58,921 nucleotides of DNA from Prochlorothrix hollandica PCC 9006 = CALU 1027 (GCF_000332315.1 NZ_KB235941.1:88654-147574); one strand, 5' to 3'. Counted from the stretch's first letter, positions 1 to 46,666 are shown. Notes: generated from the letters alone by a model not told the origin. Made by a program: numbers and translations.

Positions 1-436
1 GGTTTTTGAGTTTGACCACTTGGATCGCATCGGGATCCTCCCGATCTTCCTCGAAGACAAAATCCAGGATGCCCACGGTGTAAACGGGGTCTAGCTTAAA
101 GTTCCACGCCCCTTTTTGGCCCTGTTCTTGGACGGGGAAACTGGCGTAGTAGACGCTGCGGTCTTTGAAGAAGTTTTGTTTAGCTTTCTGGAGTTCAACG
201 ATAAAGCGTTCCCCTTGGGGGCTGTGGCAGTAGAGGTCAAAAATGGCTTTGCGGTTGATCTCGGTGGTGCCCAGGTGTTCAGTGGGGGAGTAGGTGAGGT
301 CTTGGATTTGGTGGTGGGGCGGCAGCAGGCTGTTGAGAAGGTCGATGAGAAGGGCTTTGTTGGGTTCGGTACCGAACAGTTTTTTGAAGCCGAAATCAGT
401 GAGGGGGTTGAGGTAGCGATCGGGGATGCCGTTCAT
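1..436 (-). CDS. Rpn-family nuclease/putative transposase, copy 1 (partial, runs off the left edge)
   Basis: This is the N-terminal half of a PD-(D/E)XK nuclease of the Rpn (recombination-promoting nuclease, PDDEXK_2) type. The frame reads from ATG at 436 leftwards off the window, so the 3' end is unseen. The N-terminus MNGIPDRYLNPLTDFGFKKL is the family signature (RYLNPLTDFGFKKLFG), followed by the nuclease core with 'IVELQ'. The DNA is almost identical to the next gene (offset 894 bp); I count about two substitutions over the 436 bp. It is the first of three head-to-tail copies. Rpn proteins are linked to RecA-independent recombination in E. coli and to phage defence; the role here is inferred from family only. 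No clear Shine-Dalgarno is visible before the ATG. Confidence 0.85.
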   Translation of the reverse strand, partial: MNGIPDRYLNPLTDFGFKKLFGTEPNKALLIDLLNSLLPPHHQIQDLTYSPTEHLGTTEINRKAIFDLYCHSPQGERFIVELQKAKQNFFKDRSVYYASFPVQEQGQKGAWNFKLDPVYTVGILDFVFEEDREDPDAIQVVKLKN

Positions 437-472
437 GGTGATAGAGGGGGTGAGGATTGCTGAGTTCTAAGG

Positions 473-1330
473 CTATGGGTCTAGGTTGGCGATCGCCCGA
501 TCGATGTCAGCCTGGGAAAATCCGGCGGCTTCCATCCCACGGATCAGGGCAGCGATGGTTTCGGCACGGCCTTCTTCCCTACCTTTGGCGCGGCCTTCTT
601 CCCAGCCTTCTTCCCGCGCCGTATCGACGACATTATTGAGGTCCCAGTAGTGTTTGAGACTTTCCCGGTAGGCCACCTGCTCCAGGGGGTCGAATTGGGC
701 CACTTCGGCGGCGGTGAAGAGTTCGCTAAAGACTGATTCCTGGAGGTTCTGGGGTTGATCTAGCAAATGGGACAGGGATTTGAGGAGGAACAGCCATTTA
801 TCGGTGTGGGTTTGGAGTTGGTCGAGGGATTTGGTGAACTTAGGTAGTTCGATGTAGATGAAGGTCAGTTTTTCGTAGAAGGTTTTGCAGTGTTGGTTTT
901 TGAGTTTGACCACTTGGATCGCATCGGGATCCTCCCGATCTTCCTCGAAGACAAAATCCAGGATGCCCACGGTGTAAACGGGGTCTAGCTTAAAGTTCCA
1001 CGCCCCTTTTTGGCCCTGTTCTTGGACGGGGAAACTGGCGTAGTAGACGCTGCGGTCTTTGAAGAAGTTTTGTTTAGCTTTCTGGAGTTCAACGATAAAG
1101 CGTTCCCCTTGGGGGCTGTGGCAGTAGAGGTCAAAAATGGCTTTGCGGTTGATTTCGGTGGTGCCCAGGTGTTCGGTGGGGGAGTAGGTGAGGTCTTGGA
1201 TTTGGTGGTGGGGCGGCAGCAGGCTGTTGAGAAGGTCGATGAGAAGGGCTTTGTTGGGTTCGGTACCGAACAGTTTTTTGAAGCCGAAATCAGTGAGGGG
1301 GTTGAGGTAGCGATCGGGGATGCCGTTCAT
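473..1330 (-). CDS. Rpn-family nuclease/putative transposase, copy 2
   Basis: A complete 285-residue Rpn/PDDEXK_2 protein. The N-terminal half carries the signature RYLNPLTDFGFKKLFG and the PD-(D/E)XK core: 'IFDLYCHSPQGERFIVELQ' supplies the D and the ExQ in place of ExK, common in this family. A helical middle follows, then a charged low-complexity stretch rich in EGR/EEG (about residues 235-255), and a tail ending in QADIDRAIANLDP. The expected role is Mg-dependent DNA cleavage. It lies between two near-identical copies, with 36 bp to the copy 1 start and 44 bp to the copy 3 stop, which implies recent tandem duplication. It could be one transcription unit. The glutamine in the catalytic motif means activity should not be assumed. 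Confidence 0.88.
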   Translation of the reverse strand: MNGIPDRYLNPLTDFGFKKLFGTEPNKALLIDLLNSLLPPHHQIQDLTYSPTEHLGTTEINRKAIFDLYCHSPQGERFIVELQKAKQNFFKDRSVYYASFPVQEQGQKGAWNFKLDPVYTVGILDFVFEEDREDPDAIQVVKLKNQHCKTFYEKLTFIYIELPKFTKSLDQLQTHTDKWLFLLKSLSHLLDQPQNLQESVFSELFTAAEVAQFDPLEQVAYRESLKHYWDLNNVVDTAREEGWEEGRAKGREEGRAETIAALIRGMEAAGFSQADIDRAIANLDP

Positions 1331-1374
1331 GGTGATAGAGGGGGTGAGGATTGCTGTAATGCTGGGATTTCAGG

Positions 1375-2256
1375 TTATGGGTCTAGGTTGGCGATCGCCC
1401 GATCGATGTCAGCCTGGGAAAATCCGGCGGCTTCCATCCCACGGATCAGGGCAGCGATGGTTTCGGCACGGCCTGCTTCCCGACCTTCTTCCCGGCCTTT
1501 GACGCGGCCTTCTTCCCAGCCTTCTTCCCAGCCTTCGTCCCGCGCCGTATCGACGACATTATTCAAATCCCAGTAGTGTTTGAGACTTTCCCGGTAGGCT
1601 ACCTGCTCCAGGGGGTCGAATTGGGCCACTTCGGCGGCGGTGAAGAGTTCGCTAAAGACTGATTCCTGGAGGTTCTGGGGTTGATCCAGCAGATGGGACA
1701 GGGATTTGAGGAGGAACAGCCATTTATCGGTGTGGGTTTGGAGTTGGTCGAGGGATTTGGTGAATTTAGGTAGTTCGATGTAGATGAAGGTGAGTTTTTC
1801 ATAGAAGGTTTTGCAGTGTTGGTTTTTGAGTTTGACCACTTGGATCGCATCGGGATCCTCCCGATCTTCCTCGAAGACAAAATCCAGGATGCCCACGGTG
1901 TAAACGGGGTCTAGCTTAAAGTTCCACGCCCCTTTTTGGCCCTGTTCTTGGACGGGGAAACTGGCGTAGTAGACGCTGCGGTCTTTGAAGAAGTTTTGTT
2001 TGGCTTTTTGCAGTTCGACGATAAAGCGCTCCCCTTGGGGGCTGTGGCAGTAGAGGTCAAAAATGGCTTTGCGGTTGATTTCGGTGGTGCCCAGGTGTTC
2101 GGTGGGGGAGTAGGTGAGGTCTTGGATTTGGTGGTGGGGCGGCAGCAGGCTGTTGAGAAGGTCGATGAGAAGGGCTTTGTTGGGTTCGGTGCCGAACAGT
2201 TTTTTGAAGCCGAAGTCGGTGAGGGGGTTGAGGTAGCGATCGGGGATGCCGTTCAT
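1375..2256 (-). CDS. Rpn-family nuclease/putative transposase, copy 3
   Basis: The third tandem Rpn/PDDEXK_2 gene, 293 residues when started at the ATG at 2256. The frame stays open upstream to 2391, but that extension is proline-rich, overlaps the methyltransferase gene and has no match in the other copies. MNGIPDRYLNPLTDFGFKKL is identical to copies 1 and 2, so 2256 is the start. The protein differs from copy 2 mainly by an eight-residue expansion in the acidic/basic EEGWEEGR repeat before the C-terminus, and by scattered third-position substitutions. It is the most diverged copy, so probably the oldest or the parent of the array. Upstream 2257-2359 holds no clear promoter. Confidence 0.87.
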   Translation of the reverse strand: MNGIPDRYLNPLTDFGFKKLFGTEPNKALLIDLLNSLLPPHHQIQDLTYSPTEHLGTTEINRKAIFDLYCHSPQGERFIVELQKAKQNFFKDRSVYYASFPVQEQGQKGAWNFKLDPVYTVGILDFVFEEDREDPDAIQVVKLKNQHCKTFYEKLTFIYIELPKFTKSLDQLQTHTDKWLFLLKSLSHLLDQPQNLQESVFSELFTAAEVAQFDPLEQVAYRESLKHYWDLNNVVDTARDEGWEEGWEEGRVKGREEGREAGRAETIAALIRGMEAAGFSQADIDRAIANLDP

Positions 2257-2359
2257 GGTGAAACTGGGGGAAGGGGTGTTTTTTATTATGCAAGGGGGGT
2301 TAGGGGGTGGGTTTGCGGGCAGTGGCGATCTAGTGGCCGGGTGGGCCGTGGGGGATGGG

Positions 2360-3199
2360 TTATGCGGGGTTTTCAAAAAACGGTTTTTCAAAGAAAATTA
2401 AATGCTGCTGGGGCAAACTCTCATCGGTTTTGAGCCAGTGGAAACCTAAAAACTCCAGTTCTTTTTTAACCTGGACTTCACTCATTTTATGGAGACCTTT
2501 GATGGGGACAAAGGGATCCTCGGCCCGATATTCCGCCAAGACGACGCGGCCTCCTGGCTTGAGGGCGATGGCGATCGCCGCCATCATTTCCTGGGGGTAA
2601 GCAAATTCATGGTAGGCATCCACCAGCAACACCAGATCGACACTGGCGGCAGGTAACCGGGGATCCTGATCCGTCCCCAGGATCGATCGCACATTGTCGA
2701 TACCCAACTCCTGTTGCAACGCCCCCAGTATCTCCAGCATTTCCGGCTGGACATCCACCGCCCACACTTGGCCCTGGGGCACCTGGGCCGCAAGGCGAAA
2801 GGTCAGGTAACCGGTGCCCGCCCCAATGTCCGCCACCTGATCCGTGGGCTGGAGACCTAACTGCTGCACCAAAACCTGGGGCTGCTCTTGCCAAAGACGG
2901 CTGGGGCGTTCGAGCCAGCCAGCCCCCCGGTGGCCCATCACCTGGGCAATTTCCCGCCCTTGGTAAAAGCGGCCAATGCCGTCGGGGTGGTGGATGGGGC
3001 GGGTCACATAGGCGGCGGGGTCACCGGGGGCGATGGGCACCTCAAGCCAGACCCAGGGCAGCACCACCAGGGCTAAAAAGAGGCCCAGGGCGATCGCCCA
3101 GCGGGAACTCCGTAGAATTGCCAATTTACGCAGGGGACTCCCATCAGGCACAGTAGGTAGGTTCATAGGGTCGGGCGATCGCTGAAAGGGTTTAGCCAT
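2360..3199 (-). CDS. Membrane-anchored class I SAM-dependent methyltransferase
   Basis: A 279-residue protein. One hydrophobic segment near residues 32-52 (WAIALGLFLALVVLPWVWL) follows a positively charged N-terminus, suggesting a signal anchor. A class I methyltransferase fold begins around residue 105: motif I is VADIGAGTGYLT (SAM-binding GxGxG), the acidic motif II residue follows in WAVDVQPEM, and a motif IV region is LVLLVDAYHEF. The substrate is unknown; similar proteins are annotated only as SAM-dependent methyltransferases. It is the upstream neighbour of the Rpn cluster on the same strand (103 bp to copy 3) but functionally unrelated. The start ATG at 3199 is the first in frame; a later methionine (residue 12) is an alternative. 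Confidence 0.85.
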   Translation of the reverse strand: MAKPFQRSPDPMNLPTVPDGSPLRKLAILRSSRWAIALGLFLALVVLPWVWLEVPIAPGDPAAYVTRPIHHPDGIGRFYQGREIAQVMGHRGAGWLERPSRLWQEQPQVLVQQLGLQPTDQVADIGAGTGYLTFRLAAQVPQGQVWAVDVQPEMLEILGALQQELGIDNVRSILGTDQDPRLPAASVDLVLLVDAYHEFAYPQEMMAAIAIALKPGGRVVLAEYRAEDPFVPIKGLHKMSEVQVKKELEFLGFHWLKTDESLPQQHLIFFEKPFFENPA

Positions 3200-4834: not shown

Positions 4835-4897
4835 GAGATTGGTTCAGGTATACTATATGGTCGCAAAAAAAATGAAGAGGGCAAGAGGGCAAGAAGG

Positions 4898-7666
4898 TTA
4901 AAGGGCAAGAGTCCTGGGCGCGGGGCAGGCCACACGAAAACCGAGCCTGTAGTCCCGCAAGACGCGCGAATGGAGGCTCCGATAGGCAGAACGGCAATTC
5001 CTCGGATCATCCTTCCAAGAGCCACCTTTTATTACTTTTTTAGTAGTACGATTGTTCTTGTCTAGCCAAGCACTGCCATCCTCTGGTGCCCCCTGATAAT
5101 TCCTATGCCAGTCGTCCTGGCACCACTCCCAGACATTACCGTGCATATCCAATAGCCCCCAAGCATTCGCCCCCCTCAAAGACCCCACAGGGGTCGTTTG
5201 CTGCCGAAACTGCCCCCTTTGACCCAGACTATAGGTAGCGCCATTATAGTTGGCCACATCAGTGTTTAAGGTGTCGCCAAAGTGGAAGGGGGTGATCGTT
5301 CCCGCTCGGCAGGCATATTCCCACTGGGCCTCGCTGGAGAGACCATAGTCCCGTTGGAACCGTTGACGCAGGCGGGCACAGAATTCTACCGCATCTTTCC
5401 AGGACACCTGCTCTACCGGATGATTAGCGCCTTTGAACCGGGAAGGGTCGGGGTCCAGGTTTTGGGTCACCTGATCCCAGCGGGCCACAATGCGCCATTG
5501 GGCCTGGGTAATGGGGTAGCGGCCCAGGTAGAAGGAGGACACACTGACACGATGCTGGGAGTATTCATCGCCGTATGACCGTGCCTCGGTCCTAGGGGCA
5601 CCCATCAGGAACTCACCACCGGGGATGGCGATCATTTCAAGTTCGGCAAGCTGTTCAGGATTATTTTCATGAATTAGGGTTTCAATAAAGCCGGTGGTGC
5701 TAGCCCCATAGCGTTCTCGATCGCTGCCGTCGGGGTTGAGGGTAACGACGGTGTAGTTGAACTGGGTGGGTTGGGTGCCGGGAAGGGGAGCAGGGAGGCG
5801 GTCTGTGGGGAGTGGTTCTTCAACGAGTTGGGCAACGGTATAATCTGTGGTCTCAAGGGGGAGTGCGTCATTCTCCCAAACACCCCAGATGACTTCTAAG
5901 GGTTCAAACGTAAGACTACTATCAGCGTCTGTTGCCACACCTGCTGGGGTTTGTGCCGTCAGCCGATCGGCGATCGTCTCAAAATCGCTCCCCAATCCCC
6001 GCAGAATCTTACCAGTAACCGTTGCAAAGGCTTGGAAAAACTCAGTTTCCGATGAATCTTGCCCGTTACTAGGGGTTTTCAGTAACGCGCGGAACTCCTG
6101 CACCGATTTCCCTAAGCCCTGGGCCACATACAACGAGACCCGGTTCAACACATCTTGGGTTTCTAGGAACGACCCCGATCGCAGCCGCTCCCGCACCGCC
6201 TCATCCACCAACTCATAGGCAATGCGTTCTGCATTCTCAAAATTAGGGGTATCCCGGCCACTGACCTTGAGCAAGCCGCTCATAAACACTTCCGCAAAGT
6301 GTACCGTGCGGGCCTGGGGCAACATGGCACGTCGAATCAGCCGGACAATGGGCAAGGTAATCACGGGGGCCGCCGTCAGCAGGGTTGCCAACTCGCGGGA
6401 TAGGGGAGAAGCCCGCAGAATAAACGTATCAAGGCGATCGCCCACGGAGGGCCGCTGGGCTGAGGATGGAGCCGGAGCCAGGGTCGCCGGGGAGGCATCC
6501 CAGACTATCCCCAAGGTTCTCTGGCGGCGATCGCCCGACAGCACCCCAGCCCAACGCCCCAACGCCTGGGGATCGAGGGGCACCACTGGCATATAGGGGA
6601 CATCGGGGACATCGGCCTGCCCCTGGGCTGCATCGAGGCGGGGCTGATCCCACACCGACAGCACTGTCGGCTTCAGGGTACTGTTGGGGGTATCGGCGGT
6701 CTTGGCTTGGAACTCCACGGTGATCGATCTGGCTAGGGCCGTGCGAGACCACAGCCGTTCTGGGAAAACCTGAAACACCACTGTCGGTAAGGTCTTTGCC
6801 CATACCCCCACTAAGGCCCGCATTTGGCCATTGTGCCAACCTGCCCCCACACAATCGCTGAGAATGACCACCAGACGGCGACGATCGCCCGTCAACAGCT
6901 CGCTGGGTTTGTGGCAGACTGTCCGGTTACGGGAGACGAAGCGAACGCCCTCCCCTTGCGGCTCCAAAAACCAGATGCGCACATCCCGAAATTGCCCATA
7001 GCGACAGAGAACACGGTGTAAATCGGCGGCGAACCGTTGCCATAGACACATGGAGGGGTGCTGATCAAAAACCAAGGCCACATCCCACCACAGCTCCTGC
7101 GCTGGCCGCAGCACCGGTTGCCAAATTCCCATCTCGGCCACACGATCCACCGTGGCCGCTTCATCTAAAATCCTCGGCTGTCCCACGTCGGCTTTCTTGG
7201 CCAGAACCCGCAGCGATCGGGCAATCTCCAAGGGATCCGCAATCCCAGAGGCATCGGGCACCGGAATAGGACGATAGTTCTCTGGGAGTACCAGAGTATT
7301 AACAGGTTCCGGCACCAGTTCTAGAGTATTAACAGGTTCCGGCACCAGTTCTAGAGTATTAACGGGTTCCGGCACCAGGTCTGCGGCGGGTGGGTCTGTA
7401 TCAGGAGGAGGCAAAAACGGGGATGTATCATCATCTTCCGCCTCGATCGCAGGATCGGTTACAGAGCGTTGTGGATCATCATCTGGGGTCTCTGGGGTCT
7501 CTGGGGGTGGCGGGTCTACGGGCCTTGCCGGGATATCAATGATCTCAGATCGGGCGATCGTCGCGGCAAACCACATCACCTCCGCAATTTCAGTGCCAGT
7601 TAACCCCTGTTGACTGAGAACAGTGGTCAGTTTCTGTAAGGCTGGGCTAAGGGTTGGAGTCGCCAC
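4898..7666 (-). CDS. vWA (SAV_2336-like) protein with C-terminal DGR-diversified FGE-sulfatase domain (target 1)
   Basis: A 922-residue multidomain protein. Residues 1-45 form a small helical domain. Residues 46-150 are an acidic/proline-rich linker with three direct repeats of LVPEPVNTLE. Residues about 185-385 are a vWA-like domain: ALVFDQHPSM resembles a degenerate MIDAS, and LVVILSDCVG is the central strand. A helical region follows, then an FGE-sulfatase/C-type-lectin-like domain from about 665 to the end ([29 protein letters not shown]). The last 37 residues are variable repeat VR1. The gene overlaps the upstream moxR gene by one base (ATG/stop), so the two are translationally coupled. 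The likely role is the vWA partner of the MoxR ATPase, with a hypervariable ligand-binding tip. It lacks obvious FGE catalytic cysteines, so the domain probably binds rather than oxidises. The domain calls are solid; the function is inferred from family. Confidence 0.9.
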   Translation of the reverse strand: MATPTLSPALQKLTTVLSQQGLTGTEIAEVMWFAATIARSEIIDIPARPVDPPPPETPETPDDDPQRSVTDPAIEAEDDDTSPFLPPPDTDPPAADLVPEPVNTLELVPEPVNTLELVPEPVNTLVLPENYRPIPVPDASGIADPLEIARSLRVLAKKADVGQPRILDEAATVDRVAEMGIWQPVLRPAQELWWDVALVFDQHPSMCLWQRFAADLHRVLCRYGQFRDVRIWFLEPQGEGVRFVSRNRTVCHKPSELLTGDRRRLVVILSDCVGAGWHNGQMRALVGVWAKTLPTVVFQVFPERLWSRTALARSITVEFQAKTADTPNSTLKPTVLSVWDQPRLDAAQGQADVPDVPYMPVVPLDPQALGRWAGVLSGDRRQRTLGIVWDASPATLAPAPSSAQRPSVGDRLDTFILRASPLSRELATLLTAAPVITLPIVRLIRRAMLPQARTVHFAEVFMSGLLKVSGRDTPNFENAERIAYELVDEAVRERLRSGSFLETQDVLNRVSLYVAQGLGKSVQEFRALLKTPSNGQDSSETEFFQAFATVTGKILRGLGSDFETIADRLTAQTPAGVATDADSSLTFEPLEVIWGVWENDALPLETTDYTVAQLVEEPLPTDRLPAPLPGTQPTQFNYTVVTLNPDGSDRERYGASTTGFIETLIHENNPEQLAELEMIAIPGGEFLMGAPRTEARSYGDEYSQHRVSVSSFYLGRYPITQAQWRIVARWDQVTQNLDPDPSRFKGANHPVEQVSWKDAVEFCARLRQRFQRDYGLSSEAQWEYACRAGTITPFHFGDTLNTDVANYNGATYSLGQRGQFRQQTTPVGSLRGANAWGLLDMHGNVWEWCQDDWHRNYQGAPEDGSAWLDKNNRTTKKVIKGGSWKDDPRNCRSAYRSLHSRVLRDYRLGFRVACPAPRTLAL
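4907..5025 (-). repeat. DGR variable repeat VR1
   Basis: 119 bp aligning without gaps to the template at 12939-13057, at the extreme 3' end of the vWA gene. By hand I count about 11 substitutions at template adenines and three at non-adenines: AAC to AAG, AAT to TTG (third base) and AAC to AGG (third base). The GC-rich 3' part (GTGGCCTGCCCCGCGCCCAG) is invariant and is followed by G where the template has C, the expected IMH/IMH* difference. Confidence 0.93.
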
Positions 7667-8766
7667 TAATCCTCCTCACTTAACCCCTTGAGCAGCAGAT
7701 TCACCAGCTTCTCCCGTTCCTCTGGTGTCTCAGGTTTCACCTCACGAGTCAGCAAGTAGACCACATTCAAAAGCTGGTCTGTCGCCACATTGGCGTTCAC
7801 TGACGCTCCCCGTTCCATAAAAGCCTCCACTAACTTCGCTGCATCCGCTTTCAAGCGGGGCCATCGCTCTTCATCGGAACCCCGTTTCAGGTGAGATTCC
7901 ACAATATGGGTTAAGGCATCTTTGTTTTGGCTTGGATCGGGCATTCGTAGCCGTAAACAGCGACGCAGGAACGCTGGCGGAAAGTCCCGCTCGCCGTTGC
8001 TGGTCATAATCACCAATGGGAACTGATAGCAGGTCACACTGCCCCCCGCTATCTCCACCCGCCCATCCTGATCCGCAGTCCGCACCTGCACCCGTTGGAA
8101 TTCAGACTCATCTTTGCAGCGCACCAGCTCTGGGATTTCGTAGCTGCCTTCCTCAAATAGGTTTAAGAGGTCGTTGGGTAGGTTAATGTCGCACTTATCG
8201 ATCTCATCCACCAACAACACCCTCGGCAGGGACCAGGGTAGAAAGGCCGTGCCCAGGGGACCAATGCGAAAATAATCCCCCATCGATCGTTCTCGCTGAA
8301 GCGATCGTTCTCGCCGAAGCTGGGCATCTTGGAGACGGGCCACGGCATCGTAGCGGTACAGGGCATCGGTCACCGTAGAGCGGGCATTGACGGGCCAAGA
8401 TAGGACAATGCCCAATTGCAATTCATGGGCGATCGCATAGGCTAAGGAGGTTTTCCCGGAACCGGGTTTACCCGTCACTAACAACGGTCGCCGCAAATGC
8501 AGGGCTGCGTTGACGGCATGGGTCACCTCTTGATAGGCAGCGTTAATCTTGAAACGAGTGCCCCGTTCCTTTCCCCGTCGGTCCTGCTTGCTTAGTGCTT
8601 TAACCTGTTCCCAGCGTGTTTGGGCTTCCTCCGCAATTTTGGCAAAGTCTGCCTTGCCCATAAATTGCCGCCAGCCGGGAGCCTCCGGCAGGGTTTCGGC
8701 GGTCAAGGGCTGGGAGTCACCATTCCCTAAGAATTTCTGCCAACTAGAGCGATCGGGGTCTGTCAT
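7666..8766 (-). CDS. MoxR-family AAA+ ATPase
   Basis: A 366-residue AAA+ ATPase of the MoxR clade. Walker A is GKPGSGKTS (about residue 97), Walker B is LLVDEIDKCD, sensor 1 is VIMTSNGERDFP, and the arginine-finger segment is FLRRCLRLRMPDP. MoxR ATPases act as chaperone-like remodellers with a vWA-domain partner. The partner gene starts one base into this gene's stop and completes the MoxR-vWA pair. Upstream is VMAP, with a gap of 114 bp. Inside the operon the ATPase would provide the NTP-dependent threshold switch; that role is inferred from published comparative genomics of such systems. The N-terminal 60 residues (WQKFLGNG, WRQFMGKADF) contain a short repeated motif possibly contacting partners. 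Confidence 0.93.
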   Translation of the reverse strand: MTDPDRSSWQKFLGNGDSQPLTAETLPEAPGWRQFMGKADFAKIAEEAQTRWEQVKALSKQDRRGKERGTRFKINAAYQEVTHAVNAALHLRRPLLVTGKPGSGKTSLAYAIAHELQLGIVLSWPVNARSTVTDALYRYDAVARLQDAQLRRERSLQRERSMGDYFRIGPLGTAFLPWSLPRVLLVDEIDKCDINLPNDLLNLFEEGSYEIPELVRCKDESEFQRVQVRTADQDGRVEIAGGSVTCYQFPLVIMTSNGERDFPPAFLRRCLRLRMPDPSQNKDALTHIVESHLKRGSDEERWPRLKADAAKLVEAFMERGASVNANVATDQLLNVVYLLTREVKPETPEEREKLVNLLLKGLSEED

Positions 8767-8880: not shown

Positions 8881-10089
8881 TCAAGGCCAAGACAAATACT
8901 CTGACTGGGGCGCAGGGGGGGTATAGCGGAGATCTTCGTACAAGACTCCCAAACAACCAACTGCTGCACCAGCATCAAGCTGGTCTTCGCGGACTATAGG
9001 GATGTTGTCTAAGAATGTAAAGCGGTTCTCCTGGACTAAGTCTGAGAAGTATGTCTCAACAGCGCAAGGATCTAGTTGACTCTCACTCATCCACAGTGCC
9101 AAGGGAATCCCTGCTTTAACCAGGTCTTGCCAGTATTGTAGATATTCTGTCCCTGGCCTGAGCCATTTCCCATAACACCGCACCCCAGAATACCTCTTCC
9201 ATTTGACCTTTTCAGACTGGGCATCGAGATCACTACTATATAACCATTGCAGATCTTCTAAGGAGGAGATGCCGTTTGGGCCGGGTGAGTCGGGACAACA
9301 TTTCTGGAAGCGTTTCGACCACCCCGATTTGAGAGAATTGTAGAAGATAGGGGCATAAGTATCATTATGCTTGAAGCGATCTGAACAGCCTAAAACTAGC
9401 GCGTGATCCTGGAGAATGGAGGATTGCACCCCACACCAATCGGTTAGGGGATTTCCCAGTAACTCTACCGGTACAAATAGAGAGATCGTCAGTTCCCACG
9501 GCCTCAATGGATCAGGAAAAGGCTTGGGTAAAGTGCCAAAAGCCAAGCCGATTAGCCTTGTTAGAAATTCAGGAAAGTCATCCTTAGACACCTTAAAGTC
9601 ATCAGACACCTTAAAGTCATCTTTTTTCTCATCACAGTCATCTTGTTTCATTAAATGTAAAGACTCGGTACAAATAAACTCCTGTTCCTTTGGATCGCGG
9701 TAGAAAATTTGGGCAGAGACCTTAAAGGTAGGGGGGGTTAGGTTTTGCGAAAATACAGCTAATACTAGATATGCCCTACCAGGATCTTCTTGGCATAAGA
9801 TGGGGCTTGATTCTCTGACTATATCCTTACTAGATTGTCTGACTATATCCTTACTAGAAGGAGATATGTTTTCGTTAATAACCTGATCTGGCAAAAGTTG
9901 AAGTTCTTGAATTCTCTGACATACACGTCCGATTTTTTGAACTAAGTTCTCTCTTTCAGCCTCTGACCGAACCTCTTCAGGCCCACTGACAGTGAGCAGT
10001 TTAGCAGTCACAGCATCGAGTTGATCTTTTAAGCCCTGAAGTTGTGTTTGTAGGGAATCCAAGAGATACAGATCAGCCTCGCTGGTCAT
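8881..10089 (-). CDS. VMAP-like protein (vWA-MoxR-associated protein, C-terminal domain) with N-terminal coiled coil
   Basis: 402 residues. The first 50 are a coiled coil (LLDSLQTQLQGLKDQLDAV) resembling the coiled C-terminus of the neighbouring protease, so the two may pair. From about residue 115 the protein matches what I remember of the VMAP-C domain: a strand-rich start (YLVLAVFSQNL), then 'ELTISLFVPVELLGNPLTDWC', a tryptophan-rich RWKRYSG-like segment, 'AGIPLALWM' and a final 'GVLYEDL'. VMAP joins MoxR and vWA in ternary conflict systems. The gene overlaps the protease gene by 17 bp. A tandem DFKVSDDFKVSKDD acidic insert is at about 155-170. Calling the domain rests on motif memory, not a search. 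Confidence 0.72.
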   Translation of the reverse strand: MTSEADLYLLDSLQTQLQGLKDQLDAVTAKLLTVSGPEEVRSEAERENLVQKIGRVCQRIQELQLLPDQVINENISPSSKDIVRQSSKDIVRESSPILCQEDPGRAYLVLAVFSQNLTPPTFKVSAQIFYRDPKEQEFICTESLHLMKQDDCDEKKDDFKVSDDFKVSKDDFPEFLTRLIGLAFGTLPKPFPDPLRPWELTISLFVPVELLGNPLTDWCGVQSSILQDHALVLGCSDRFKHNDTYAPIFYNSLKSGWSKRFQKCCPDSPGPNGISSLEDLQWLYSSDLDAQSEKVKWKRYSGVRCYGKWLRPGTEYLQYWQDLVKAGIPLALWMSESQLDPCAVETYFSDLVQENRFTFLDNIPIVREDQLDAGAAVGCLGVLYEDLRYTPPAPQSEYLSWP

Positions 10090-11275
10090 AGCCCGCCTCC
10101 TCCAGTTGCCGATCGACTTTGGTAATTTTCTTGGCTATCAAATTACGTTCTTCGTTTAGTCGCATTTCCTGAGCGCCACTGGCTGCCAACAGTTCATCCG
10201 TTGTTGCCTCTAGTTGTTGCTGCAAACCTTTCCGTTGCTTCAACAAAGAATTGATTAAGTCGGTATTCATTTCGGCATTGATCACAGCAGGTGGATTAGA
10301 AGAAGCACCCATAGACGGCGAGTCTTTTGCTGGAGTGCAGAACGGAACAATCTCCTGTTCAATTTTCTCCATCTCCTGCTCAAATTGGGCAAGCCGCCGC
10401 TCTAATCGGCTTCGGTTCACAGGATCAAGTTCAGTCTCTAGTTGTCTTTGAACTGCTATATACTCCTCTTCCGATCGTTTCAGTTCCCCTTGTAGACGAT
10501 CGAGCTTGAGTTGCTGAACTCGACTGAGGGAAGGAGCAGGATGATGAGATGGCATAGGCTGTGCAGACGGAATAGAAATAGAAAGCTGATTCGGTTTTCC
10601 ACAAGGCTGAAGTAAAATCTGCGATCGGCTGTGAGACTCTACTTGATGACGGAACACTTGGCCAATCTCATGATGTTCAATGAGCCAGCCGATCGCCAGA
10701 ACCTCCAGCACCTCTCCTCGAAATTCCTCAAACCCTTGGGTCACGATGCCCGCTAGCAAGCCATTTTCCGTAAATACTGGAGAACCAGAAAATCCCTTCC
10801 ATGCCTGCATTCCACTGTTGGGAATCTCGTCCTCGATCTTAAACTTAGCTAGGGCTGGCTCTTTCACAGAACCAAAGGGAGTAAGCTGTCCTTTAAGCGA
10901 ATAATCCCGATAGCGTCCTTCTGTTTGAGCAAAGGCGGGAAATCCACAGGCTTGGCAAACAATAGTCTGGCTCGGCTCTAATCGCGCAATGGGAGGGATC
11001 GTGATCCCTTGGCCAATCAAGCGCTGTTCATTCTCGCTAAAAAAGACTAAAGCAATATCAAGCGTCTCGTTAAACCAGATGCGGCTAGAGTGCAGCCAAC
11101 GATCGGGATCTGCCTGAAAATCACCTAATAACCGGAAACTTACGCCAGTGTCGGGGCAATCTTTGATCACATGATGGGCCGTCAACAGGCACCCCGAACA
11201 GAGCAGGTAACCTGTGCCCCGTGATTCCGTCGCCTCCACCCAAATTTCCGCAACTTGTGTCTGCACCAATGCCAT
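10073..11275 (-). CDS. Trypsin-like serine protease with C-terminal coiled coil
   Basis: 400 residues. The N-terminal 200 form a chymotrypsin-fold protease with an intact triad: histidine in LLTAHHV (about H35), aspartate in TLDIALV (D73) and serine in GFSGSPVF (S163). No signal peptide is seen, so it is probably cytoplasmic. A linker follows, then two helical coiled-coil hairpins (about 245-300 and 335-395) rich in Glu/Gln/Arg. The second resembles the start of VMAP. It lies 35 bp downstream of the Trypco2 gene and overlaps VMAP by 17 bp. Proteases like this co-occur with VMAP/MoxR/vWA, where a proteolytic cascade is thought to trigger or release effectors; that is inference here. Confidence 0.9.
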   Translation of the reverse strand: MALVQTQVAEIWVEATESRGTGYLLCSGCLLTAHHVIKDCPDTGVSFRLLGDFQADPDRWLHSSRIWFNETLDIALVFFSENEQRLIGQGITIPPIARLEPSQTIVCQACGFPAFAQTEGRYRDYSLKGQLTPFGSVKEPALAKFKIEDEIPNSGMQAWKGFSGSPVFTENGLLAGIVTQGFEEFRGEVLEVLAIGWLIEHHEIGQVFRHQVESHSRSQILLQPCGKPNQLSISIPSAQPMPSHHPAPSLSRVQQLKLDRLQGELKRSEEEYIAVQRQLETELDPVNRSRLERRLAQFEQEMEKIEQEIVPFCTPAKDSPSMGASSNPPAVINAEMNTDLINSLLKQRKGLQQQLEATTDELLAASGAQEMRLNEERNLIAKKITKVDRQLEEAGYDQRG

Positions 11276-11310: not shown

Positions 11311-11637
11311 CTAGCGGGGCTTATTGGCTCCCGTTTGGGAGACCTGAACCGATCCACCTTGGGTAGTCACCGGTTTGAGAGTGAGCTTGACGGTGTGGGT
11401 GGTGGCTTTGGAGCGTTTCAGTTCGCCTTCCGCCGAGACTTCTAGGGCAACAACCCCCACATTAAAGCCAGCACTAGCACCGCCTGTACCGCCCTTTTCT
11501 TCGGAGATTTCCACTTGGAACTCCAGCTCGATCGGCCCTAGGTCAAATTTAATCGCTTCGTTTTCACCGGCTTTCACAGCAGTCACAATTTCGCTGCGAA
11601 TTGCCTGAATCGCTTGGGCGATCGGAATTGTAGCCAT
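11311..11637 (-). CDS. Trypco2-like (trypsin-co-occurring domain) small protein
   Basis: A 108-residue protein starting MATIPIAQAIQAIRSEIV. An N-terminal helix (about 1-22) is followed by strand-rich sequence: IKFDLGPIELEFQVEIS, a GG-rich turn, then FNVGVVALEVSAEGE and THTVKLTLKPV. This matches the Trypco2 pattern (a helix, 'lelevevt', GG, 'hrikltL'), a domain named for its linkage to trypsin-like proteases, here 35 bp downstream. The longer frame to 11697 adds a non-conserved leader; the ATG at 11637 has GAGAGAAAT just before it. It is the first gene of the five-gene protease/VMAP/MoxR/vWA operon. Biochemical function is unknown; it may inhibit or tether the protease. Confidence 0.78.
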   Translation of the reverse strand: MATIPIAQAIQAIRSEIVTAVKAGENEAIKFDLGPIELEFQVEISEEKGGTGGASAGFNVGVVALEVSAEGELKRSKATTHTVKLTLKPVTTQGGSVQVSQTGANKPR

Positions 11638-11946
11638 ATTTCTCTCAAGGTTGCAGGGTTGATCTCGTCGGGTCGGGCTGCCGGAGAGGCTGCACACGCT
11701 CCGGTGTGACAGCGAAAGATTGCCTTAGTCTAGCAGACCAAGCCCCCCACATCAGGACAGAACAGCCCCCAGGAGAGCCATTCCTAAAGGAACCATGACC
11801 CATTGGGATTATCCCGGTAACGGGCGGCATCCTGGGGGGTGCAGGGTTCATCCCAATAATTTCGATCGCTCCGCGCAGGGTTTGGATAGTTCAAATGTAC
11901 TATATAGCTGCTCAAAAAAATTGAAGAGGGCAAAAGGGCAAGAGGG
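11638..11946. other. Intergenic region between DGR target 2 and the Trypco2 operon
   Basis: No gene is recognised. The right end (about 11895-11945) is the target-associated trailer shared by all three DGR targets: a purine-rich AAGAGGGCAAAAGGGCAAGAG block and GTACTATATAG. On the minus strand a short reading frame (ARYRDNPNGSW...) lies here, but it is out of frame with target 2 and could be a remnant. The promoter of the five-gene operon is expected here; I could not fix its boxes. Confidence 0.4.
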
Positions 11947-12813
11947 TTAAAGGGCAAGAGTCCTGGGCGCGGGGCAGGCCACACGAAAACCGAGGTTGAA
12001 GCTCCGATGGTCGCGCGAATCGTAGTCCCGATAGGCAGAACGGCAATACCTCGGATCATCGTACCAAGAGCCGCCTCTTCTTATCTTGCTGATAGTACTA
12101 TTGTTCTGCTCTAACCAAGCACTGCCATCCTCTGGTGCCCCCTGATAATTCCCATGCCAATCATCCTGGCACCACTCCCAGACATTACCGTGCATATCCG
12201 ACAGGCCAAAGGGGTTGGTGATGGTGTAGTGGTCAACGGGGGTGGTCTGGCCGATCGGTTCTCCCTTTACGCCTTGGGGACCATAGGTTTTTGAACAATC
12301 ATAGTTGGCCACTTCAGGGCTGAGGGTCTCGCCAAAGTGGAACGGGGTAGTGGTTCCGGCGCGGCAGGCATATTCCCACTCCGCTTCCGTGGGTAGGCGG
12401 TAGGGATGCCCCGTCTGGGCAGCGAGACGGACGCAAAATTCCACCGCATCCTCCCAGGAGACCTGTTCCACGGGATGGTTCGGGCCTTTGAAGCGGGATG
12501 GGTCTGGATCAAGGTCGTGTTCTTGTTTAGGGAACTCAGCCACAGCTCGCCACTGGGCCTGGGTGATGGGATAGCGACCCATGGCAAAACTAGGCACCGT
12601 AACCAGGTGTTGCGGCTTTTCATCGTCATAGTCGCCCTCCTCCCCAGGGGAACCCATCATAAAATCACCCCCTGGAATCCAGATCAACCCAAGAGGGATT
12701 GCACCTGCTTCCAGAGATAGAGGTTCTATATGCTGCTGAACAGTGTGAGGCTGGCGGCGCAAACGGAGGGCGGGCATGGGCAAACAGAGACGCAGGGGGA
12801 GAAGCCAGGGCAC
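11947..12813 (-). CDS. DGR target 2: FGE-sulfatase/C-type-lectin-like protein
   Basis: 288 residues, almost only an FGE-sulfatase domain: IWIPGGDFMMGSPGEEGDYD starts the fold near residue 45. It continues with [41 protein letters not shown] and [11 protein letters not shown], ending in variable repeat VR2. No signal peptide or partner domain is visible. The start is GTG at 12813, preceded by AGGAAG about 9 bases upstream; ATG at 12777 is an alternative with no visible ribosome-binding site. The template repeat lies 126 bp upstream of the start, on the same strand. By family it is a ligand-binding scaffold tolerating massive surface variation, as in other cyanobacterial DGR targets. The ligand is unknown. 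Confidence 0.92.
   Translation of the reverse strand: MPWLLPLRLCLPMPALRLRRQPHTVQQHIEPLSLEAGAIPLGLIWIPGGDFMMGSPGEEGDYDDEKPQHLVTVPSFAMGRYPITQAQWRAVAEFPKQEHDLDPDPSRFKGPNHPVEQVSWEDAVEFCVRLAAQTGHPYRLPTEAEWEYACRAGTTTPFHFGETLSPEVANYDCSKTYGPQGVKGEPIGQTTPVDHYTITNPFGLSDMHGNVWEWCQDDWHGNYQGAPEDGSAWLEQNNSTISKIRRGGSWYDDPRYCRSAYRDYDSRDHRSFNLGFRVACPAPRTLAL
11956..12074 (-). repeat. DGR variable repeat VR2
   Basis: 119 bp aligned to the template at 12939-13057. By hand there are about ten substitutions, every one at a template adenine (for example AAC to TAC, AAT to GAT, AAC to TTC), and none elsewhere before the IMH G/C difference. This is the classic signature of adenine-directed mutagenic retrohoming. Changed codons give Y, D, Y, D, Y, D, H, S and F in place of template Asn. 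Confidence 0.96.
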
Positions 12814-12938
12814 GGTTCGGACTTCCTACTAAGCGACCTGACTTCGGGGTATTTTTGGACAGCTTGCGCCATCACTGGACTAGGTCTGGACTCTTCAAGA
12901 TGCTCCCGACAGATTCCCATCTGCCAGTTCTGACGCAG

Positions 12939-13057
12939 AAGAGTGCTGGGCGCGGGGCAGGCCACACGAAAACCGAGGTTGTTGTTCCGATTGTCGCGCG
13001 AATTGTTGTTCCGATAGGCAGAACGGCAATTCCTCGGATCATTGTTCCAAGAGCCGC
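12939..13057 (-). repeat. DGR template repeat (TR)
   Basis: The non-coding template of the retroelement, between the reverse transcriptase gene and target 2. Its minus strand carries clustered Asn codons: AACAAT, AAT, AACAACAAT, GACAAT and AACAACAAC. Each lines up with variable residues of the three targets. In all three VRs a G follows the GC-rich CCCCGCGCCCAG where the TR has C, marking IMH* against IMH. Homology stops at AAGAGT on one side and GCGGCTC on the other. Flanks are unlike those of the VRs. It is probably transcribed with avd and the RT gene. Confidence 0.96.
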
Positions 13058-13140
13058 TTTGCGGCCTAGCCCGCTTTCTATGCTACTGGATGGGTTCCAG
13101 AAATCCTAGCTTAACTGCCCCTTGCAAATCGTCAAAAGGT

Positions 13141-14229
13141 TTAGTTCTCCTCCTGGGAGGGGTTAGGGGTGGCGTGGCGTTGGAATAATAACTGTTGCCA
13201 AATACGCTGGCGGAGGCGATAGGTGTCGCCGTGGGCGAGGTGTGCTTCCCAACTTTGGAGCCGTGTTATCAGTGCTGGGAGGGTGATATCTCCGTGGGCA
13301 TAGGCTTTCTGGAGCTGTTTACAACGGCGACGGGCACGATAGAGGTTATCGTTGCGAACTCGAAGACGATCGGGCAAAACCCGAAAGCCGACAAAATTTA
13401 CACCATGCTGGGTTTCAAAGATTTGGGTCTTGGCGGGATGGAGACGCAGCCGCAGACTTGCTAAGTAGTGGTGAATCTGGTGCTGGGCCTGGATAAGCTG
13501 GGGCTTACTATCTGAAAACAAGGCAAAATCATCCACGTAACGGAGATAGGCACCTATTGTGAGCTTCTCTGCAATGAAGTGATCCAAACCATTGAGATAG
13601 AAATTGGCAAAAAACTGGCTGGTTAGGTTGCCAATGGGCAACCCTCGTCGCCGCTCCAGAGGACTGAGGAGACTGTCCCCTGGAAAATGCACCACATCAG
13701 AGTCTTGGTCATTGCTGCCATCAATAATTTGATCGAGGAGCCAGAGGGTAGGCTGACACTTCAGTTTGCGGCGGAGCTGGGTTTTGAGAATGGTGTGGTC
13801 AATGCTGGGGAAGTAGCGGCGGATGTCGCACTGGAGAATGTAGCGGTGGCGACGGGCAAGACGGGTGAAGTGCTTCAGGGCGCGGTGGGTACCATAACCC
13901 GTTCGGTTGGCATAGCTTCCCCGTACAAAGCTACGTTCCAAAAGTGGGACTACTACATTACAGACTGCATGATGGACAACCCGATCGCGGTAGGGCGCTG
14001 CCGAAATCATTCGGAGCTTGGGGTCATGAATCATAAAGCTGCGATACGGGCCAGGGCGATAGGTCTGGGTGCTTAATTCGTGCTGTAGCCGCAGGAGTTC
14101 TGACTCGATGTTGTAATTAAATTCGAGAACATTCTCTCGGTAACGTTTTTGGCGCTGGGCTTGCTTTGCCGCCTGTAACAGGTTCTCGAAGGCAATAATC
14201 TGGGTCCATAACCGTCCGTAGCGTTTCAT
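13141..14229 (-). CDS. DGR reverse transcriptase
   Basis: A 362-residue reverse transcriptase. Motifs are VVHHAV and GYGTHRAL (RT2 region), [13 protein letters not shown] (motif A aspartate), [17 protein letters not shown] (the DGR-specific GxxxSQ form) and [10 protein letters not shown] (YVDD catalytic site). The thumb carries GVNFVGFRV. It makes mutagenised cDNA from the TR transcript, misincorporating opposite adenines. Avd ends 7 bp upstream, so they are co-translated; the TR begins 83 bp past the stop. Length and motif set are standard for bacterial DGR RTs and no lesion is visible. With VR2 and VR3 showing adenine-only changes, the element is probably active or recently active. Confidence 0.97.
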
Positions 14230-14236
14230 CTGCGTT

Positions 14237-14587
14237 TCAAGATCCCAGGGTGAGCTGTTGCTTCAACCACCCCCCTAGGTCTATACCAACTCCATTAATT
14301 TGTTCGCTGGCGTAGCGGTAGCGATCGATCGACACCAACTCAAAATCCAACAATAGCCGGGTTTGATAGCGCAGCAGATCCAAGCGCACGTTCAGCGCCT
14401 TCAACTGTGGTACTTTCTGCTGTTGGTAGCGCACAGCGATCAAGCTTTCCAACAATCCATATAGTTCAGAGACCATTCTGTCACCTAGCTGAAAGCGATG
14501 ATGACGCGGTAATCGGTTCAAAATTGGCACATACCACTTAATTAAGTCGTAGGTCTTCTGAATAATCGGCAGTTCTTGCTTTTTCAT
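14237..14587 (-). CDS. avd: DGR accessory protein Avd (four-helix bundle)
   Basis: 116 residues, all helical in pattern and rich in Arg/Lys/Leu/Tyr, of the Avd/S23-like four-helix bundle family: [20 protein letters not shown] starts near residue 13, then [30 protein letters not shown] and a C-terminal helix. Avd forms a basic pentamer that binds the RT and is needed for cDNA synthesis in studied DGRs. It is placed 7 bp upstream of the RT gene. The ATG at 14587 begins [16 protein letters not shown], the usual Avd N-terminus. Upstream is the trailer of DGR target 3. Confidence 0.93.
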
Positions 14588-14728
14588 GACTTTAACCTAG
14601 ATCTCAACCTCTCCACAGTAACCAATAACGGCTTACGGCATCCATTAAGAAGTGTAAATCATTTATATAGTCTCTTTGTACTATATAAATCCGTAAAAAA
14701 TTTTTAAGAGGGCAAAAGGACAAAAGGG

Positions 14729-15574
14729 TTAAAGGGCAAGAGTCCTGGGCGCGGGGCAGGCCACACGAAAACCGAGGTCGTAGTCCCGAAGGCCGCGCGA
14801 ATCGTAGCCCCGATAGGCAGAACGGCAATACCTCGGATCATCGTCCCAAGAGCCGCCCCTTCTTACTTTTATAGTAGTACTATTGTTCTCATCTAGCCAA
14901 GCACTGCCATCCTCTGGTGCCCCCTCATAATTCCCGTGCCAATCGTCCTGACACCACTCCCAGACATTGCCGTGCATATCCACTAACCCCCACTGGTTAG
15001 CAACCCCGTAGTGATCCACTGCTGTCGTCTCCCCTACCTTCTTCCCCTTCACCCCTCGCGGCCCATAGGTACTTCCACAGCTATAATTCGCCAACTCCGG
15101 CACCAACGTTTCCCCAAAGAAAAACGGGGTCTCGGTTCCGGCGCGGCAGGCATATTCCCACTCCGCTTCCGTGGGTAGCCGGTAGCCCCGCTGGGTCTGG
15201 GCCGCTAACCGGGCACAAAACTCGATGGCATCGTCCCAGGACACCTGCTCCACCGGGCGATTGTTACCCTTAAAGCGCGACGGGTTTGGCTTCAATTCCC
15301 GCTCCTGCTGGGGCATCGCCGCCACCGCCCGCCACTGGGCCTGGGTCACCGGATACTGCCCCAACAAAAAACGGGGCACCACCACCCGATGCTGCGGCCC
15401 TTCCCGTTCATCTCGTTGCGCTTCACCCTTCGGAGAACCCATGACAAATTCCCCCCCTGGGATCAGCATCAGCCGCAAGGGCAGATCCCCCTCGGCCAGA
15501 TTCAGCGGCTCCAGACAGCTCTGGGCCTGGTGCTGGCTGCGCTGCACTATTAACGGACGCAATGATGTACTCAC
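14729..15574 (-). CDS. DGR target 3: FGE-sulfatase/C-type-lectin-like protein
   Basis: 281 residues from GTG at 15574. The frame is open to 15697, but the extra 41 residues are translated from repeat family C. The GTG is preceded by AGGAGTGAGAGG and the resulting N-terminus aligns with target 2, so 15574 is preferred. The protein is a single FGE-sulfatase fold: [58 protein letters not shown] and [11 protein letters not shown]. It ends with VR3. It lies upstream of avd and the RT gene on the same strand, giving the order target, avd, RT, TR, target. It is close to target 2 throughout, so the targets are paralogues. The ligand is unknown. Confidence 0.92.
14738..14856 (-). repeat. DGR variable repeat VR3
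   Basis: 119 bp aligned to the template. I count about 13 substitutions, all at template adenines, including both adenines of AAC to GGC and AAT to CTT. Variable residues are D, D, Y, G, Y, D, G, L, D, Y and D. It is the most diversified of the three repeats by adenine changes, with no non-adenine change in the core. Confidence 0.96.
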
Positions 15575-32717: not shown

Positions 32718-32830
32718 GGTTTCACTCAAATAATGCTGTGGGGGGATGGCGATCGCTAGCATCTGTGGGCCTGGGTCGTGATGCCTAATTACATTGGCTG
32801 GACCCTGTTGAACGTTGTTCAGTCCTGCAT
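32718..32830. repeat. Leader-like repeat preceding hairpin array 1
   Basis: About 113 bp starting GGGTTTCACTCAAATAATGC and ending TTGAACGTTGTTCAGTCCTG. It occurs a second time at 42917-43030, also directly left of an array of the same hairpins. The internal TTGAACGTTGTTCA is itself an inverted repeat. It has no coding content. Confidence 0.8.
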
Positions 32831-33133
32831 GGGATTGTCGAGTTGTACTCGACCCAAAGCCGACTGCAAGTCGGCTCTCCCAGGGGGATTTGGGATTGTC
32901 GAGTTGTACTCGACCCAAAGCCGACTACAAGTCGGCTCTCCCAGGGGGATTTGGGATTGTCGAGTTGTACTCGACCCAAAGCCGACTACAAGTCGGCTCT
33001 CCCAGGGGGATTTGGGATTATCGAGTTGTACTCGACCCTAAGCCGACTACAAGTCGGCTCTCCCAGGGGGATTTGGGATTGTCGAGTTGTACTCGACCCT
33101 AAGCCGACTACAAGTCGGCTCTCCCAGGGGGAT
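32831..33133. repeat. Double-hairpin tandem array 1 (five 61-bp units)
   Basis: Five head-to-tail 61-bp units. Each contains two perfect palindromic hairpins, GTCGAGTTGTACTCGAC (loop TGT) and AGCCGACTACAAGTCGGCT (loop ACA), then CTCCCAGGGGGATTTGGGATT. Loops of neighbouring hairpins are complementary. Units differ by single bases (AAAG/TAAG, TGC/TAC). No spacers, so not CRISPR. It lies 128 bp downstream of pgi. Confidence 0.9.
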
Positions 33134-33261
33134 TATCGATAGTCCCAGGCAGGACATCAATGCCCCAGTGTCCCTCAGGGTTGGGGACACCGTTGGCGGG
33201 GGCTGGCGCATAGGGTCTCCATGCCCTGGATATGAACCCCTGGGGGGCAGAACCCCGGCGT

Positions 33262-42916: not shown

Positions 42917-43030
42917 AGTTTCACTCAAATAATGCTGTGTGGGGATGGCGATCGCCAGCATCTGTTGGCCTGGGTTGTGATGCCTCATCACATTGGCTGA
43001 ACCCTGTTGAACGTTGTTCAGTCCTGGATT
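42917..43030. repeat. Leader-like repeat preceding hairpin array 2
   Basis: The second copy of the 113-bp sequence at 32718-32830 (GTTTCACTCAAATAATGCTG to TTGAACGTTGTTCAGTCCTG), with about 10% differences. It again abuts a double-hairpin array on its right. Confidence 0.8.
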
Positions 43031-43353
43031 GGGATTGTCGAGTTGTACTCGACCCTAAGCCGACTACAAGTCGGCTCTCCCAGGGGGATTGTCGAGTCTC
43101 CCAGGGGGATTGTCGAGTTGTACTCGACCCTAAGCCGACTACAAGTCGGCTCTCCCAGGGGGATTGTCGAGTCTCCCAGGGGGATTGTCGAGTTGTACTC
43201 GACCCTAAGCCGACTACAAGTCGGCTCTCCCAGGGGGATTGTCGAATCTCCCAGGGGGATTGTCGAGTCTCCCAGGGGGATTGTCGAGTTGTACTCGACC
43301 CTAAGCCGACTACAAGTCGGCTCTCCCAGGGGGATTGTCGAGTTGTACTCGAC
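43031..43353. repeat. Double-hairpin tandem array 2 (54-bp and 21-bp modules)
   Basis: The same two hairpins as array 1 (GTCGAGTTGTACTCGAC and AGCCGACTACAAGTCGGCT) in four full 54-bp modules. They are separated by 21-bp short modules in which GTCGAG joins directly to TCTCCCAGGGGGATT, and a terminal lone first hairpin closes the array. The short modules look like deletions between GAG and the CTCTCCC sequence. Confidence 0.88.
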
Positions 43354-46131: not shown

Positions 46132-46234
46132 TACAGCAGTCCGAAATGGGTCATGTGGGGCGCGTCTTCCGGGCGCACCCCACCCAAAGGGTTTCGGCGA
46201 TCGAGATCCTTACAACTGATTTAGGATTGCTGTA
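46132..46234. repeat. MITE-like element, family A, full-length copy 5 (inverted)
   Basis: 103 bp, TACAGCAGTCCGAAATGGGT to ATTTAGGATTGCTGTA, 59 bp upstream of the SulP start, so it may replace or carry promoter sequence of that gene. Confidence 0.88.
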
Positions 46235-46288
46235 ACTAGCCCTAGATAAGGGTATCAACTGACTGACTGACTGACACAAGTCCCTCAT

Positions 46289-46583
46289 TAGACAGGGGCT
46301 TGGTTAGACAAGGGGCTTGGTTAGACAAGGGGCTTGGTTAGACAAGGGGCTTGGTTAGACAAGGGGCTTGGTTAGACAAGGGGCTTGGTTAGACAAGGGG
46401 CTTGGTTAGACAAGGGGCTTAGTTAGACAAGGGGCTTGGTTAGACAAGGGGCTTAGTTAGACAAGGGGCTTGGTTAGACAAGGGGCTTGGTTAGACAAGG
46501 GGCTTAGTTAGACAAGGGGCTTAGTTAGACAAGGGGCTTAGTTAGACAAGGGGCTTAGTTAGACAAGGGGCTTAAGCCCCTTG
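46289..46583. repeat. 17-bp tandem repeat array closing in a palindrome
   Basis: About 17 units of TTAGACAAGGGGCTTGG, with G/A variation in CTTGG/CTTAG that is not random: A variants cluster at the right. The last unit runs into CAAGGGGCTTAAGCCCCTTG, a perfect 20-bp palindrome. The array is flanked on both sides by CTGACTGACACAAGTCCCT as direct repeats (46265 and 46586). Confidence 0.92.
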
Positions 46584-46666
46584 TTCCTGACTGACACAAG
46601 TCCCTGAAGCGACGCAAACTCATAACGAGATTTCAAGGGTTTCAGGAGATCTGTCAGTCAACCAGG

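Follow-up and report, generated by a model that had tools for sequence, protein, structure and literature searches.

Does the region between positions 11,947 and 15,574 of a 58,921-nt stretch from Prochlorothrix hollandica PCC 9006 = CALU 1027 (GCF_000332315.1, NZ_KB235941.1:88654-147574; the whole stretch is called the window here) carry a working diversity-generating retroelement (DGR), and does its enzyme serve only the targets encoded close by? The first-pass annotation of this DNA described a complete, apparently functional DGR with an accessory protein (Avd), a reverse transcriptase (RT), a 119-nt template repeat (TR) and three targets. All core parts were found intact, and judging from the sequence we consider it very probable that they form an intact, recently active DGR embedded in a cyanobacterial VMAP ternary conflict locus. 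This reading is based on adenine-restricted differences between template and targets, on the cores of the two adjacent targets, equal at 87 of 87 other sites, on the intact RT and Avd, on a covarying RNA, on a C/T-rich tract and on the conflict-locus neighbours. It is in agreement with the same layout in relatives, with the published association of DGRs with ternary systems and with the published sensor model. That the DGR is functional is what we infer from this evidence. Of greater consequence than the local DGR is its extension by an orphan template elsewhere in the genome.

In the direction of transcription, on the minus strand to which all window features located below belong, the order is right target, avd, RT, template repeat TR1, RNA element and left target, followed on the same strand by Trypco2, trypsin-EAD9, VMAP-C, MoxR and the SAV_2336-FGE target. 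TR1 occupies 12939..13057 (119 nt). The three variable repeats (VRs) align with it gap-free and in register at the C-terminal coding ends of the targets, namely at 11956..12074 (left), 14738..14856 (right) and 4907..5025 (distant). If TR1 positions 1-112 are regarded as the core, with 87 non-adenine sites, 10 adenine changes and no others occur in the left VR, 13 and no others in the right VR, and 11 together with four others in the distant VR. The hand counts of about 10 and about 13 changes in the first-pass annotation were therefore exact, while its statement that all changes fall on template adenines holds for the cores of the two adjacent VRs but not for the distant VR or for position 113. 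The computational alignment that it proposed as a check gives an adenine enrichment in all three VRs (Fisher's test over the whole 119 nt including position 113: 4.8e-7 for the left, 1.7e-9 for the right and 1.6e-5 for the distant VR). TR1 and its VRs are thus near-repeats differing at template adenines, as is characteristic of DGRs. Position 113, just outside the core, is C in TR1 and G in all three VRs; this difference is an IMH*-like 3' mark, corresponding to the IMH*/IMH pair of DGRs (IMH, initiation of mutagenic homing).

Among the core codons counted, 10 of the 36 are AAC/AAT, the Asn codons noted earlier. Adenines occupy codon positions 1 and 2 only, never the third, a stop codon is unreachable from any template codon by adenine change, and about 1e14 products can be reached.

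The two adjacent VRs are equal at all 87 non-adenine core sites, while their 150-nt 5' flanks differ at 30 sites (20%; P 3.7e-9). This is expected if the template overwrites the core and spares the flanks, and the zero drift at non-adenine sites is taken as evidence of recent rewriting of the left and right VRs. The same base is found at seven of their eight jointly mutated adenines (P 0.003, or 0.009 if the observed base spectrum is used). This is suggestive only of copying from one another, since selection for the same residues could have the same effect.

The RT gene (13141..14229, 362 aa) is intact, with matches to Pfam RVT_1 (9e-22) and, best among PDB entries, to 8ub7 (1.2e-50). The alignment with this solved RT spans its length, and the SQ-motif decapeptide and the YVDD, both named in the first-pass annotation, align with GIPIGSLTSQ and YMDD of the 8ub7 RT chain, so that the SQ and xxDD motifs of a DGR RT are in place. 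Avd (14237..14587, 116 aa) scores 135 bits against NCBIfam DivGenRetAVD, above the curated cut-off of 80 for Avd proteins of DGRs, and also matches Pfam bAvd. Both reading frames are open.

As described earlier, two targets flank the avd-RT-TR core, each consisting of an FGE/C-type-lectin domain only. The left one (11947..12813, 288 aa as called; Pfam FGE-sulfatase 2.5e-55) has a called start that overlaps the RNA element, and an in-frame ATG lies near 12777. Its AlphaFold model (mean pLDDT 81) matches FGE-fold proteins, with TM values of 0.68/0.70 to TvpA (2y3c). The right target (14729..15574, 281 aa) has a GTG start in an open reading frame (ORF) extendable to 15697. In the distant target (4898..7666, 922 aa) a SAV_2336/vWA-like N-terminal region is fused to FGE (NCBIfam SAV_2336_NTERM 4e-102; Pfam FGE). 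It starts about 5.3 kb from TR1 and its VR lies 7.9 kb away, close to the 8 kb given before. The count of three targets is correct for TR1 but not genome-wide, where a second template matches five more genes. Several targets per template, to which the annotation drew attention, are real but ordinary, as relatives have one to three local targets and remote ones are published.

Behind TR1 lies a structured 3' element of the template RNA (12802..12934, 133 nt) with three conserved stem regions. Downstream of TR, relatives share a region of about 135 nt in which some blocks, AGTCCA among them, are invariant and TCCAAAA is nearly so; for this region RNAalifold yields 34 pairs, 29 of them with compensatory changes. 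Rfam gave no match up to E 5 across 11800-14700. We built a covariance model (R1, 106 bits for the window element) from 18 relatives, with the P. hollandica genome excluded, and it finds exactly two elements in that genome: the one in the window and a second at C4:225664-225799 (114 bits, E 4e-22). Covariation and model matches thus place a structured RNA behind TR, as in other DGRs. The region behind the TR of BPP-1 has two tasks, recruitment of RT-Avd and priming of the cDNA (PMC12875486). By analogy the element behind TR1 would correspond to the BPP-1 "sp" region and may likewise recruit RT-Avd and prime the complementary DNA (cDNA). New is the covarying element of about 133 nt outside Rfam, and the covariance model makes cyanobacterial templates findable without an RT.

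Where TR has the RNA element, the VRs have a C/T-rich tract of octamers (GCCCTTTA-ACCCTCTT-GCCCTTTT-GCCCTCTT), directly 3' of the left (11924..11955), right (14706..14737) and distant (4875..4906) VR; GCCCTTTT and GCCCTCTT are among its octamers. In the 60 nt downstream, pyrimidines make up on average 73% after a VR and 45% after a TR, with no overlap (30 vs 18), counts that include related genes and are not independent. Of 454 other genes, only 3.3% attain 65% pyrimidine, and two copies of the motif occur in none of them. We propose the tract as a candidate recipient mark, in the role of the hairpin/cruciform that BPP-1 needs behind its VR (PMC3240598); in some relatives a GC hairpin follows the tract. 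A literature search on tract terms found no description of a C/T-rich octamer tract after a VR. The tract is a specific and testable candidate for the discrimination of recipient and donor in this lineage. A different arrangement was seen in other cyanobacteria (L158, L159, L166, L170, L172, L173, L174 and L176), in which an FGE gene is followed immediately by the RNA element and there is no C/T tract. Loci of the L158 type are possibly scars of a recombination between VR and TR that deleted avd and RT, similar to a solo long terminal repeat, or self-templating genes.

By comparison with the family, a single transcript would contain both TR and the structured 3' element; RT-Avd would bind this element and reverse-transcribe TR, inserting random bases at adenines, and the mutated cDNA would replace the VR (homing). 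From the sequence, the shared 3' end and the C/T tract after each VR may mark the recipients, and TR with the RNA element in that place would be spared. Each target could then display a re-randomised ligand-binding face, with about 1e14 reachable variants. Following the model outlined in PMC10907252 and PMC7159879, the vWA-like/FGE target would pass binding via MoxR to the VMAP and trypsin partners, and the two FGE-only targets would add further binders.

The second RNA element leads to the question of how far this enzyme reaches. Just upstream of it lies an Asn-codon-rich repeat, TR2 (C4:225527-225638), which is matched by five FGE-domain genes (C4:220002, C12:83424, C1:1488340, C9:1201116 and C1:650401). 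Compared to TR2 the five VRs show 10, 13, 13, 15 and 14 adenine changes and 0, 0, 0, 0 and 4 others, so that four of the five match it at every one of the 81 non-adenine sites. At the position just beyond the core, A in TR2 corresponds to G in all five VRs. The cores of this family are equal at non-adenine sites, and the flanks differ by up to 50%. C12:83424 and C1:1488340 are identical in the VR and the 150-nt flank and were therefore counted as one event; the former belongs to a short ORF of 164 aa, the latter to one of 1060 aa. All four non-adenine changes of C1:650401-650512 against TR2 are G to T. TR2 itself is located within a truncated FGE fragment and shares 165 nt of extra homology with one target, with one mismatch and none at an adenine, which points to an origin from a target copy.

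No RT or Avd was found near TR2, and the assembly of 13 contigs has a single DGR RT and a single Avd, those of the window. An RT on C6 was considered as a second DGR enzyme and rejected: its motifs are IPTGPDTS and YYDDY, its neighbourhood is different, and no adjoining Avd, TR element or FGE gene was seen. This non-DGR RT-like gene (C6:68409-68750, L095) is apparently split, adjoins transposase-like sequence and is perhaps Abi-like.

We lean, by a little, towards the explanation that the RT-Avd of the window also serves the orphan TR2 in trans, with one enzyme for two templates and eight targets. The differences between TR2 and its VRs fall almost wholly on adenines, the TR2 RNA element was found by an independent model as one of exactly two in the genome, a single Avd and a single DGR RT are at hand, and the VR cores are alike at non-adenine sites despite their diverged flanks. 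A further hint arises from the single-contig genome G096, whose only DGR RT serves a cassette; 1.4 Mb away from it there is an orphan TR-VR pair with 8 adenine changes and 0 others. On the other side, the RNA of TR2 groups with another DGR lineage (76% to L085/L158) and not with TR1, so that it may originally have been used by a different RT. One must also keep in mind that the assembly is in 13 contigs, and that clean orphan TR-VR pairs persist in G288 and G190, two genomes that lack a full RT.

These last genomes, together with G237, which has the RNA element and no full RT, can also be read in favor of a tentative alternative: TR2 and its five targets would be the relic of a second cassette that recently lost its RT and Avd, its template idle, and the DGR of the window would serve its own three targets only. 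Cassette decay is indeed visible in this genome, where an Avd fragment persists beside a third target family near C9:750 kb whose template is gone, and the truncated FGE fragment around TR2 would fit as well. The full score that the RNA element of TR2 keeps, and the four VRs free of non-adenine changes, speak against a relic. Orphan templates are thus real, yet a clean orphan pair alone is no proof of use in trans, which is why our preference for trans use remains slight.

The comparison was extended to 291 sampled cyanobacterial genomes. The RT family of the window (E <= 1e-60) is present in 52 of them, and R1 matches occur in 85. If the weakest are left out, 128 RNA elements remain, of which 63 have an RT within 6 kb and 65 have none, although, with some genomes fragmented, contig ends may account for a share of the 65; 27 of the 65 occur in 21 genomes with an RT elsewhere. 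About half of the templates found thus lie apart from any RT. When 20 loci of relatives were scanned directly, most turned out to have a TR with one to three VRs close by; target-avd-RT-TR-target arrangements are among them, and L074, L076, L078, L079 and L090 have the same layout with vWA-like/FGE targets. Whether cyanobacterial DGRs are in general split, genome-wide systems, with stand-alone template RNAs sharing one conserved element, one RT-Avd acting in trans and C/T-marked targets, we regard as an even call. If so, a single enzyme in P. hollandica would work with two templates and on eight sensor genes. Use in trans would mean that one enzyme diversifies many immune-like sensors, and surveys anchored on the RT would miss such templates.

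Some points speak against the local DGR as an intact, recently active part of a conflict locus. The distant VR has four non-adenine changes, three of which adjoin mutated adenines; it may have been overwritten less recently, it may have drifted, or homing may have been accompanied by errors. The vWA-like fold of the 922-aa target is weakly indicated (model pLDDT 51, best fold match E 0.018), and the role as immune sensor is putative in every family member. The drift of the distant VR (4 of 87 non-adenine sites) would also suit a DGR that is dead or silent in this strain, with old VR differences, and in laboratory Trichodesmium the template RNA is strongly expressed and mutagenesis was not seen (as cited in PMC8867640). 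As RT, Avd, TR and RNA element are all intact and two VRs show zero drift, we regard this as improbable. That ordinary paralogous FGE genes share a chance repeat and no retroelement exists, an idea invited by the 19 FGE matches in the genome and the conserved C termini of FGE relatives, is refuted by the adenine restriction, and with a non-adenine difference from TR1 of 25-43% in other FGE paralogues against 0, 0 and 5% in the three VRs its probability is vanishingly small.

Between the left and the distant target lie, in window coordinates, a Trypco2 (trypsin-co-occurring domain 2) protein (11311..11697; Pfam Trypco2 1.4e-22), a trypsin-like peptidase with effector-associated domain EAD9 (10073..11275; EAD9 2e-19, Trypsin_2 1e-8), a VMAP-C domain protein (8881..10089; 5.2e-9, above the cut-off) and a MoxR-type AAA ATPase (7666..8766; AAA_5 8.5e-9). 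A MoxR-type ATPase gene and a VMAP protein, as required for a VMAP ternary system, are thus both present, and with the SAV_2336/vWA-like-FGE target beside them they place the DGR inside a predicted defence locus of this type. DGRs accompany about 80% of the VMAP ternary systems of cyanobacteria and gammaproteobacteria (PMC7159879), and a sensor model for DGR targets in ternary systems is outlined in PMC10907252.

Such DGRs (Kaur et al. 2020, PMC7159879; Dore et al. 2024, PMC10907252) share MoxR, VMAP, trypsin/EAD, Trypco, the SAV_2336/vWA-like-FGE target, Avd and several targets with the window, which shows no essential difference; the cyanobacterial members belong to clade 5E (PMC10907252). 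The association with ternary systems and the multiple and remote targets also appear in surveys (PMC7159879, PMC10907252, PMC7517822), and remote targets in PMC7517822, PMC4891356 and PMC10907252. The local layout is therefore already described, and P. hollandica adds a clean example to a known type. What would differ from known DGRs is the orphan-template reading: an orphan second template and a recipient tract are not described in the available sections of PMC7159879 and PMC10907252. A related case are the Thiohalocapsa PB-PSB1 DGRs (PMC10907252), likewise with degenerate loci and with targets that machinery elsewhere is thought to diversify in trans; in Thiohalocapsa, however, machinery-less targets match the TR of another locus, whereas P. 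hollandica has a machinery-less TR with its own targets. The DGR of the Bordetella phage BPP-1 shares RT, Avd, a TR followed by structured RNA, an IMH-type 3' mark and adenine mutagenesis. In contrast to it, the P. hollandica DGR is chromosomal, its targets are cellular FGE-fold proteins, and a C/T-rich octamer tract directly follows the VR instead of a hairpin/cruciform. The Treponema denticola DGR (TvpA; Nimkulrat et al. 2016, PMC4891356) shares FGE/C-type-lectin targets and several remote targets per template, and both the sequence and the fold of the left target match TvpA (2y3c), but the RT lineage differs (about 40% identical).

Among the FGE genes of the genome, two further sets, one of four genes and one of two, vary in the same way, and neither DNA search nor RNA model found templates for them. 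One set adjoins the Avd fragment at C9:750634-750735 (L096:10635-10736, minus strand; residues 4-37, 56% identity), which explains it as a decayed DGR cassette. Kinases, NACHT-HEAT, caspase and TPR are among the N-terminal partners of the FGE genes, and at C9:157952-158997 (L097) a kinase carries two FGE domains in tandem, each with a VR-like C terminus. Outside the DGR, window positions 1-2400 hold near-identical tandem copies of a PD-(D/E)XK transposase-like gene at a spacing of about 900 nt, and further tandem arrays occur at 46226-46616, 32769-33144 and 42969-43343 with spacings of 17, 61 and 75 nt.

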